Shown here: positions 2,593-20,199 of the stretch, one piece after another
Layout of the letters: each line of letters begins with the position of its first letter
Position numbering within the stretch: position 1 is the first letter of the stretch
Assembly: GCA_947448865.1 (NCBI GenBank)
Contig: CANFOW010000012.1
Coordinates: forward strand, 1 to 47,897
Direction: 5' to 3'
DNA length: 47,897 nt
Source of the DNA: Actinomycetota bacterium
GTDB lineage: Bacteria > Actinomycetota > Actinomycetes > S36-B12 > UBA5976
Position numbers and translations under genes: made by a program
Notes under the pieces: model-generated
The model's input: the letters and a program-made list of their open reading frames with translations, nothing else
Databases searched by the model: none
Told to the model about the DNA's origin: nothing

Positions 2593-2874
2593 TTAACCGC
2601 CAGCAACCGCAGGAACGATCGAAATCGAGGCTCCTTCGGGCAATGCAGACGCTAATCCGTCCAAGAATCGCACATCGTCATCATTTATATAGATGTTGAT
2701 GAAACGACGCAGTTCGCCTGTGTCGGCAACAAGTCGCTGCAAGATTCCAGGTGCGAGCGCCTCAAGGGCATCAAAGGCACCTTGCAGAGTTGCTTCTTGT
2801 GGCTCGAGAGTCACATTCGATTCGCCACCTGTGTAGGTGCGAAGAATTGTTGGGATACGCACGGAGACGCTCAT
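2593..2874 (-). CDS. cysO: CysO/MoaD/ThiS-family sulfur-carrier protein
   Basis: A 93-residue ubiquitin-fold protein ending in Gly-Gly (VAGG). The C-terminal glycine of such proteins is adenylated and converted to a thiocarboxylate that donates sulfur. Length and sequence (NIYINDDDVRF near the middle, PAVAGG at the end) closely match my memory of Mycobacterium CysO, the sulfur donor for CysM. Its ATG overlaps the stop of the upstream threonine-synthase-like gene by 4 bp (ATGA), so the two are translationally coupled. No CysM, MoeZ-type activating enzyme or Mec peptidase is visible nearby. The partner PLP enzyme and the SAM riboswitch suggest a job in homocysteine or methionine synthesis rather than molybdopterin synthesis. 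Confidence 0.9.
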   Translation of the reverse strand: MSVSVRIPTILRTYTGGESNVTLEPQEATLQGAFDALEALAPGILQRLVADTGELRRFINIYINDDDVRFLDGLASALPEGASISIVPAVAGG

Positions 2875-4139
2875 TTGCCACTCGCAATCACTTCAGCTAC
2901 TAAATCAACACTTGGACTAATTGTTGCACTAAAACCGGTGCCACTTGAAATGGCATCGAGAGTCTTCAGGCCTTCACCGGTGTTTACGATGACGGTTTCA
3001 CCTGCAGGATCGAGTTTGCCTTCAGCGAGTAACTTGCGGGTGACAGCTACGGTCACACCGCCTGCAGTCTCGGCGAAGATGCCTTCGGTTTCGGCCAACA
3101 GGCGGATGCCTTCAACAACTTCTTCGTCAGACACATCTCCAATTGCACCATTGGATCGACGTACTGCGTCGAGCGCGTATGGGCCATCGGCTGGATTACC
3201 AATCGCAAGTGACTTCGCAATCGTGTCTGGCTTCACTGGGCGAATCACATCAAGGCCATTTGCAAAAGCTGTCGATACTGGATTGCAACCCGTTGCCTGA
3301 GCACCGAAAACTCGATAATCACGACCGTCAACTAAACCAAGCTTCACAAACTCGCGCCAGCCCTTATCAATCTTGGTCAGCAATGCGCCCGAAGCAACTG
3401 GAATCACAACTTGGTCGGGCAAACGCCAGCCGAGTTGTTCGGCAATTTCATAGCCAACAGTCTTTGAACCTTCGGCATAGTAAGGACGCAGATTAACGTT
3501 GACGAATCCCCAATCGGCGGACACTTCTTCGCCAATCAGTTCGCTGCATAAACGATTCACGTCGTCGTAGTTACCATCAATGCCGATGACGAATCCGTTG
3601 TACGCGGCTGTTGCTTGGATTTTGTTGGACTCAAGATTCGAAGGAACAAGCACAACTGATCGCTGACCCGCACGCGCTGCTGCAGCGGCAACTGCATGAG
3701 CAAGGTTGCCCGTTGATGCGCACGCCAGCGTCGTAAAGCCAAGCTGAATCCCAGCACTTTGAGCTACTGCAACAACGCGATCTTTAAACGAGTGAGTGGG
3801 ATTGCCACTGTCGTCTTTGACCCACAGTGTTCCGGTCATGCCCAGTGCCTTGGCCAAATTGTCGGCGCGATGAAGACGAGTCATACCTGGCGCGAGGTTG
3901 CGTGACTCTGCGACATTGGCAGGCACTGGCAACAGCGCGGCGTAACGCCATAACGAAAGCGGTCCAGCTTCGATCTGCTCACGGGTAATGTCACCGAATT
4001 CGTAGGCAACTTCTAACGGACCGAAGCATTCCCAACAGGAATAGTCAGCACCGAGATTTGCATGCGCGCCACAGGCACGACATACCAAGTGAGTTGCTGC
4101 ACCAAATGATTGACCAACACGGTCTGCGGTAAGAGTCAT
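2871..4139 (-). CDS. thrC: Threonine synthase-family PLP enzyme, possibly a sulfur-carrier-dependent homocysteine synthase (MetM type)
   Basis: A 422-residue fold-type II PLP enzyme. It has an N-terminal zinc ribbon (Cys20, Cys23, Cys35, Cys38), the PLP lysine in HSFKD (Lys119), a phosphate-binding ASTGN loop (141-145) and GEGLKT near the C terminus. Threonine synthase converts O-phosphohomoserine to threonine. The context points elsewhere: it is coupled to a sulfur carrier and sits behind a SAM-I riboswitch, and I remember Streptomyces having this homologue in addition to its hom-thrC-thrB locus. I recall, without being able to check, a report of such an enzyme (MetM) making homocysteine from O-phosphohomoserine with a sulfur carrier. 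The ATG at 4137-4139 was chosen because the longer frame would run through the riboswitch; GAAAGG lies 10 bases upstream. Confidence 0.9.
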   Translation of the reverse strand: MTLTADRVGQSFGAATHLVCRACGAHANLGADYSCWECFGPLEVAYEFGDITREQIEAGPLSLWRYAALLPVPANVAESRNLAPGMTRLHRADNLAKALGMTGTLWVKDDSGNPTHSFKDRVVAVAQSAGIQLGFTTLACASTGNLAHAVAAAAARAGQRSVVLVPSNLESNKIQATAAYNGFVIGIDGNYDDVNRLCSELIGEEVSADWGFVNVNLRPYYAEGSKTVGYEIAEQLGWRLPDQVVIPVASGALLTKIDKGWREFVKLGLVDGRDYRVFGAQATGCNPVSTAFANGLDVIRPVKPDTIAKSLAIGNPADGPYALDAVRRSNGAIGDVSDEEVVEGIRLLAETEGIFAETAGGVTVAVTRKLLAEGKLDPAGETVIVNTGEGLKTLDAISSGTGFSATISPSVDLVAEVIASGK

Positions 4140-4156
4140 TGAATAACGACCTTTCG

Positions 4157-4274
4157 TCATCTTTCTTGGACATGCGAGCATTCCAAGCCGGAATTGGCAC
4201 CGTTTCGTGAGATTGACTCTCACGGTGGTTGCCGGGGCTTCAACGGGCCGGTCCCTCTGCCCCTCTGGATGAGG
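4157..4274 (-). promoter_or_regulatory. SAM-I (S-box) riboswitch upstream of the thrC-like/cysO operon
   Basis: Read on the minus strand, the element has the whole S-box architecture. P1 pairs UCAUC with GAUGA (4268-4272 and 4157-4161). The core AGAGGGACCGGCCC, then GAAGCCCCGGCAACC, follows. P3 is ACCGU/ACGGU closed by GUGAGA/UCUCAC. The conserved GGUGCCAAUUCC comes next, and P4 is CUUGGA/UCCAAG. The P1 3' strand ends two bases before the GAAAGG ribosome-binding site (4150-4155). There is no T-run terminator, so control of translation initiation is likely. The P4 helix and core fit SAM-I rather than SAM-IV. S-boxes normally shut off expression when S-adenosylmethionine is plentiful. Confidence 0.95.
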
Positions 4275-4354
4275 TATTAATCAATCAGGTGTGAACCTAA
4301 TCAATCTGGGAAAACTGTATCAGCCATTTTCGGCATCGTGAAACGGGGGGTTTC

Positions 4355-18886: not shown

Positions 18887-19110
18887 ACGGATTTAAGCAC
18901 GCTTAAACCGTCCCCTAAGTCTAGGAAAATATCCCCAAATGCCCAAACCGTAATTGCGTTACATGCGTTATATCTGCAATTCCCATTGCTCTAGATACTG
19001 CTGAAATGGCAGACTAGAGGGGTTGCCACATGGTGACACTTGGGGCTGAAAAGCCGCAAGACCTTTACAACGGATCGTCCGACACGTGCCTGTCGGTGAA
19101 GGAGAAAATA
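18887..19110 (+). promoter_or_regulatory. Promoter region of the MsiK-type ATPase gene
   Basis: The interval holds no gene. A direct repeat TGCGTTA (18955-18961 and 18964-18970) lies inside an inverted AATTGC/GCAATT pair (18953 to 18980). I cannot assign a -35/-10 pair with confidence. No LacI-type palindrome like those of the glucan operon is present, so the ATPase may be expressed independently of that regulon. Confidence 0.35.
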
Positions 19111-20199
19111 ATGGCTACTGTCGTTTTTTCGCAAGCCACCCGAACATATCCGGGTTCCACAGTCCCAGCCGTCAATGCCCTTGACTTAGAAATCGCCGAT
19201 GGCGAATTTCTTGTTCTTGTTGGCCCATCAGGCTGTGGCAAGTCCACATCGCTGCGCATGCTCGCTGGCCTTGAAGAAGTGAACTCAGGTTCCATCTTCA
19301 TCGGCGATCGTGAAGTTACTGATGTTGCACCTAAAGATCGTGACATCGCGATGGTGTTCCAGAACTACGCGTTGTACCCACACATGAGCGTTGCCGAAAA
19401 TATGGGCTTCGCACTCAAGATCGCTGGCGTCAGCAAGGACGAAATTAATAAGCGCGTAGTTGAAGCTGCGAAGATTCTCGACCTTGAGCCATACCTTGAT
19501 CGCAAGCCGAAGAATCTTTCCGGTGGTCAACGTCAGCGCGTGGCTATGGGTCGTGCAATCGTGCGTAACCCACAGGTCTTCTTGATGGACGAACCACTGT
19601 CAAACTTGGATGCGAAGTTACGTGTTCAGACTCGTACCCAAATTGCTTCACTGCAGCAACGTCTCGGCGTCACAACTGTGTACGTCACGCACGACCAGAC
19701 CGAAGCTATGACCATGGGTGATCGTGTTGCGGTCATGAAAGATGGCTTCTTGCAACAATGCGATACACCACAAGCGCTATACGACCGTCCAGTCAACGCT
19801 TTCGTTGCAGGATTCATCGGATCCCCTGCAATGAATCTGATTGATGTTCGCATCGATAGCGAAGGCGCTGTACTTGGTGACGCACATGTACCGCTTGGAC
19901 AAGATGTGCTTGGAGCTGCGCGAAGTGCAGGACTAGACACAATCACATTGGGCTTCCGTCCAGAAGACACTGTCGTTGGTACTGAAGGCTTTGCAATGCA
20001 TGTCAACATCGTGGAAAGCCTTGGCGCCGATGGTTACATCTACGGCGACATCACCAATGCAAACGGTGAAGTCAACCAGGTCACAATCCGAACTGATGGA
20101 CGCAACATTCCGCGCAAGGGTGAAAATGTTCGCCTGCAAGTCACTGGTGGCCACACGCACGCGTTCAACCCAGCAACGGGTCTTCGCCTAGGCAACTAG
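19111..20199 (+). CDS. msiK: MsiK/UgpC-type ATP-binding subunit for sugar ABC importers
   Basis: A 362-residue CUT1 ATPase: Walker [10 protein letters not shown] (38-46), signature LSGGQRQ (136-142), Walker B FLMDEP (157-162), switch His194, and a C-terminal regulatory TOBE-type domain. In Streptomyces one such ATPase (MsiK) energises several sugar importers. The glucan operon here lacks its own ATPase, which makes this gene the natural partner. The ATG at 19111 follows GAAGGAGA; the longer frame has an atypical N terminus. The downstream DUF4032 gene is the same neighbour as I remember beside Streptomyces msiK. Confidence 0.93.
   Translation: MATVVFSQATRTYPGSTVPAVNALDLEIADGEFLVLVGPSGCGKSTSLRMLAGLEEVNSGSIFIGDREVTDVAPKDRDIAMVFQNYALYPHMSVAENMGFALKIAGVSKDEINKRVVEAAKILDLEPYLDRKPKNLSGGQRQRVAMGRAIVRNPQVFLMDEPLSNLDAKLRVQTRTQIASLQQRLGVTTVYVTHDQTEAMTMGDRVAVMKDGFLQQCDTPQALYDRPVNAFVAGFIGSPAMNLIDVRIDSEGAVLGDAHVPLGQDVLGAARSAGLDTITLGFRPEDTVVGTEGFAMHVNIVESLGADGYIYGDITNANGEVNQVTIRTDGRNIPRKGENVRLQVTGGHTHAFNPATGLRLGN

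Follow-up and report, generated by a model that had tools for sequence, protein, structure and literature searches.

Why should a gene of the threonine synthase family stand behind a switch that responds to S-adenosylmethionine (SAM)? This question is raised by one end of the window, i.e., the whole stretch of 47,897 nucleotides analysed here, from an uncultured, Nanopelagicales-like actinobacterium. The initial annotation had placed an S-box at 4157-4274, in front of a threonine-synthase-like gene coupled to a CysO-like one, and had assigned the pair to methionine synthesis. Our results make it very probable that the locus is a SAM-I-riboswitch-controlled metM-metO operon making homocysteine, the precursor of methionine.

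A covariance scan of the whole window against Rfam identified an S-box of the SAM-I class (RF00162) on the minus strand, at 4275-4154, with 81.8 bits (gathering score 44.4 bits; E 7.2e-18) and a match covering the full length of the model (1-108 of 108). This is the sole riboswitch-class match near the place initially claimed, whose bounds are borne out to within three bases, and the only RF00162 match in the entire 1.75 Mb genome. The assignment to SAM-I rather than SAM-IV also held: the scan keeps the best family of each clan, so that SAM-I outscored SAM-IV, for which no match was reported at 4275-4154. The window therefore carries a real SAM-I aptamer at 4154-4275 (-), complete from P1 to P4. 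In the Rfam alignment, the 5' strand of the P1 helix (ACCUCAUC) lies at 4268-4275 and is kept as (N)CUCAUC among relatives, and the 3' strand (GAUGACGA) lies at 4154-4161, its GAUGA being kept in most relatives inspected. P1 abuts a Shine-Dalgarno-like (SD) purine tract, GAAAGG (4150-4155), the ribosome-binding site, whose location is likewise kept among relatives and with which the 3' strand (4161-4154) shares two bases. From its membership in the SAM-I class, the window RNA would be expected to bind SAM and to repress the genes behind it.

These genes lie on the same strand. A metM-like gene (2871-4139, -; start codon ATG at 4139-4137) encodes a pyridoxal phosphate (PLP) enzyme of 422 amino acids, assigned to the threonine synthase family by TIGR00260, Pfam PALP, alignment and tree, with a further match to PRK08197 that falls below the cut-off. 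It is followed by a metO-like gene (2593-2874, -), the start of which overlaps the metM stop by 4 bases (ATGA) and which encodes a CysO-type sulfur carrier of 93 amino acids, with the ThiS/MoaD fold (Pfam ThiS, E 1.4e-13) and a C-terminus reading ...AVAGG. Directly downstream, also on the minus strand, lie a cold-shock-protein-like frame (2051-2320) and a groEL gene (170-1786).

The most direct alternative takes the enzyme for a second threonine synthase, with a riboswitch that balances threonine against methionine. The match to TIGR00260, the NCBIfam thrC model, exceeds the cut-off (265.9 bits, cut-off 167.1), and a homologue from Microcystis, which shares 51.6% identity with MetM, is described in PMC12172450 as behaving as a threonine synthase/deaminase, forming threonine from O-phosphohomoserine. 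Homology alone thus does not fix the function, and the genome around the gene has to be considered. This genome (G000; 1.75 Mb) was assessed through family searches and is 88.4% complete, so that absences from it are provisional. Contig C41 carries a textbook lysA-hom-thrC-thrB-rho stretch; the canonical ThrC context is therefore not that of the window gene but sits on another contig, with another ThrC in a complete hom-thrC-thrB cluster. An RNA-family scan of this thrC locus returned no match, i.e., it is without a riboswitch. The two enzymes are paralogues with 35% identity, and in the tree the ThrC of this genome and those of two relatives form one group (100/100) apart from every MetM sequence, including those of Streptomyces. 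Two features are invariant among 12 aligned MetM proteins: CxxC...CxxC at the N-terminus and the motif NPTHSFKDR, which holds the PLP lysine. The ThrC proteins of the lineage instead read NPTGSFKDR at that site. Moreover, if a threonine synthase were repressed while SAM is high, phosphohomoserine would be saved for methionine at an inopportune moment, and a CysO-type carrier would be useless in threonine synthesis, yet its linkage to the enzyme is conserved. Taken together, we regard a second threonine synthase as very unlikely.

The carrier itself suggests another possibility, namely that the pair makes cysteine from O-phosphoserine in the manner of CysM and CysO, and is merely SAM-controlled. 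In a profile search against the PDB, its best match is 3dwg_C (E 7e-31), named by its depositors as the 9.5 kDa culture filtrate antigen cfp10A and which we take to be M. tuberculosis CysO; the other top solved relative, 4n6e, is also of the ThiS/MoaD family. No other CysK or CysM was found in the genome: the six PALP-family enzymes of this 88.4% complete assembly are MetM, ThrC, an IlvA-like and a diaminopropionate ammonia-lyase-like protein, and two that are TrpB-type judging from sequence, with no CysK, CysM or CBS among them. However, the window enzyme groups with threonine synthases and not with cysteine synthases, the activity published for its family is homocysteine synthesis (PMC12172450), and control by SAM suits methionine. 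We consider it extremely unlikely that cysteine is the product.

A methionine operon, in contrast with a threonine operon, is well supported. Besides the separate hom-thrC-thrB cluster lacking a riboswitch at thrC, neither MetX nor MetY was detected by family searches in the 88.4% complete genome, a MoeZ homologue is present (a protein of contig C33, 712 bits to the MoeZ model, cut-off 647), CysO is the nearest solved relative of the carrier, and in almost every relative SAM-I precedes this pair of genes; the initial placement in methionine synthesis is upheld on each of these points. The only other ThiS-family gene of the genome resembles MoaD. One cystathionine gamma-synthase/lyase-like enzyme is encoded on contig C8 and falls below all curated cut-offs shown. 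For the final step, MetE was not detected in the same 88.4% complete assembly, and two S-methyltransferase-family proteins, one of them closest to the betaine-homocysteine methyltransferase model, could methylate homocysteine.

We thus predict that the window MetM is an O-phosphohomoserine-dependent homocysteine synthase. The MetM of Hasebe and colleagues reportedly uses O-phosphohomoserine and thiocarboxylated MetO, and catalysis by the window pair would follow by homology to that system. MoeZ, encoded elsewhere in the genome, would place sulfur as a thiocarboxylate on the C-terminal Gly-Gly of MetO, a requirement borrowed here from the CysO system, and MetM would then replace the phosphate of O-phosphohomoserine with the MetO-borne sulfur to yield homocysteine. 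When SAM is plentiful, it would bind the aptamer and stabilise P1. As a result metM would no longer be translated and nor, owing to the ATGA overlap, would metO, so that phosphohomoserine would be left to the separate threonine synthase.

The closest known counterpart is the MetM of Streptomyces albulus, a novel homocysteine synthase (Hasebe et al. 2024, doi 10.1128/aem.01247-24, as given in PMC12172450), for which PMC12172450 describes metO as the sulfur carrier gene and a SAM riboswitch upstream of metM. Compared by description, the two systems share a threonine synthase homologue, a neighbouring sulfur carrier and an upstream SAM riboswitch, while they differ in their host, S. albulus as opposed to an uncultured, Nanopelagicales-like bacterium with a 1.75 Mb genome. 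Streptomyces loci of this kind encode proteins with 65-67% identity to the window MetM over about 400 amino acids and carry the same class of riboswitch, but many of their coding regions lie tens to more than 100 bases apart, in contrast with the ATGA overlap of the window pair. The window operon fits the published MetM/MetO system in every feature tested, and its function, published in 2024, is hence not new. It resembles the CysO/CysM/MoeZ system of M. tuberculosis in its CysO-type carrier with terminal GG and in the MoeZ homologue of its genome, but the partner belongs to the threonine synthase family instead of being CysM, and the predicted product is homocysteine, not cysteine. In the methionine route of Wolinella succinogenes studied by Krishnamoorthy and Begley, a MetY-type enzyme is said to act on O-acetylhomoserine, whereas the window enzyme is of another fold and has phosphohomoserine as its predicted substrate. 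Common to both is a sulfur-carrier thiocarboxylate that supplies the sulfur for homocysteine (Krishnamoorthy and Begley 2011, cited in PMC5764234).

An earlier survey of Actinobacteria, from 2005, had described no conserved RNA element in front of operons for methionine or threonine (PMC1262725). Among the sampled actinomycete loci, SAM-I control of metM-metO appears, from sequence, to be near universal. RF00162 was found upstream of metM in 25 of the 26 relatives having metM and readable upstream sequence, in Nonomuraea, and in all 40 named actinomycete loci scanned, which span Nanopelagicales to Streptomyces, Kribbella, Actinomadura, Nocardiopsis, Lentzea and Jiangella; this survey of related genomes supports the initial placement in methionine synthesis. 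The single exception among the 26 is G039 (L026, 1180-1540), whose metM-metO pair has an intact upstream region without recognisable SAM-I in a search at E up to 1. The carrier is kept as well: metO lies beside metM in 27 of the 28 loci fetched from relatives and Nonomuraea, the remaining one being cut by a contig end, and among the 80 named loci fetched from actinobacteria, a carrier gene follows closely downstream of metM in 74 (in at least two of the other six, the contig ends just downstream).

The distribution of the alternative route is less clear-cut. MetY scored above the cut-off in 14 of 40 genomes searched, nearly always with MetX adjoining. Completeness reaches at least 90% in 25 genomes; metM without metX occurs in eleven of them, the reverse in five, both genes in eight and neither in one, so that a strict mutual exclusion of metM and metX can be rejected in favour of a weak trend (Fisher one-sided p = 0.10). 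Four of the eleven genomes with metM but no metX, all more than 90% complete (G031, G034, G036 and G039), yielded no full-length PLP enzyme of Cys/Met metabolism, so that MetM is the one homocysteine synthase candidate they have among the enzyme kinds covered by the search. In a relative without metM (G029), SAM-I occurs at C19:22530-22613 (-) and lies roughly 3 kb upstream of the genome's second MetY-like gene (C19:18353-19600), an arrangement consistent with SAM-I controlling the homocysteine step.

How the aptamer acts on the operon was approached through the leaders. In the leaders measured, the P1 3' strand is separated from the start codon by 14-28 nt (median 22). An intrinsic terminator would not fit into this interval, and transcription termination between aptamer and gene was rejected on this ground. 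Since the aptamer abuts the ribosome-binding site and leaves a terminator no room, control is most likely exerted at translation. In the met operon of Xanthomonas campestris, a riboswitch of the same SAM-I class, likewise in front of methionine genes, exerts control mainly at translation through SD/anti-SD pairing (PMC7270179), whereas no conserved anti-SD helix was found by folding in the 74 leaders examined here. In the window leader, folding with P1 forced pairs GGUCGUU (4151-4145) with AAUGACU (4140-4134), a possible off-state hairpin (4134-4151, -) that conceals the start codon along with the end of the SD; with P1 blocked, the linker pairs with the P1 3' strand and both are exposed, start-codon accessibility in this one leader falling from 0.56 to 0.01 once P1 is forced. 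Over 74 leaders no such drop in SD/start accessibility upon P1 formation was seen (the mean of open minus formed was -0.045, against -0.033 for shuffled sequences). A hairpin 3' of P1 that would sequester the SD locally was rejected as a conserved device, the best stems of 60 distinct tails scoring 10.67 against 10.73 when shuffled. The simple pattern script used for the leaders failed to find one of the P1 strands in 12 leaders out of 103, several of which have the aptamer according to Rfam. The expression platform may differ by lineage, or else the SAM-stiffened aptamer may repress by crowding the ribosome-binding site. A more elaborate proposal combines MetM/MetO as the only homocysteine route of the lineage with a riboswitch working by mimicry, in which AUGACGA of the P1 3' strand and AAUGACU of the start-codon region would compete for the linker GGUCGUUAU, and binding of SAM would release this linker to cover the start codon together with the end of the SD. 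Folding of this kind was seen in the window leader and not in its relatives (74 leaders), and the combination seems to us unlikely.

The metM-metO reading bears on annotation. The window MetM passes the curated threshold set for the general thrC model, and automatic annotation would probably label it "threonine synthase" by default; under that label, genome-based predictions of auxotrophy for such actinobacteria would wrongly list a gap in methionine synthesis. Given its near universality at the sampled metM-metO loci, the SAM-I riboswitch offers a practical marker for distinguishing MetM from a true threonine synthase. It could help to judge homologues of disputed function, such as that of Microcystis, which is reported to lack a SAM riboswitch. 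Elsewhere in the window, an msiK RNA element (RF01747, 54.9 bits) lies at 19054-19110 (+), before a gene for an MsiK-like sugar ABC transporter ATPase (frame 19030-20199).
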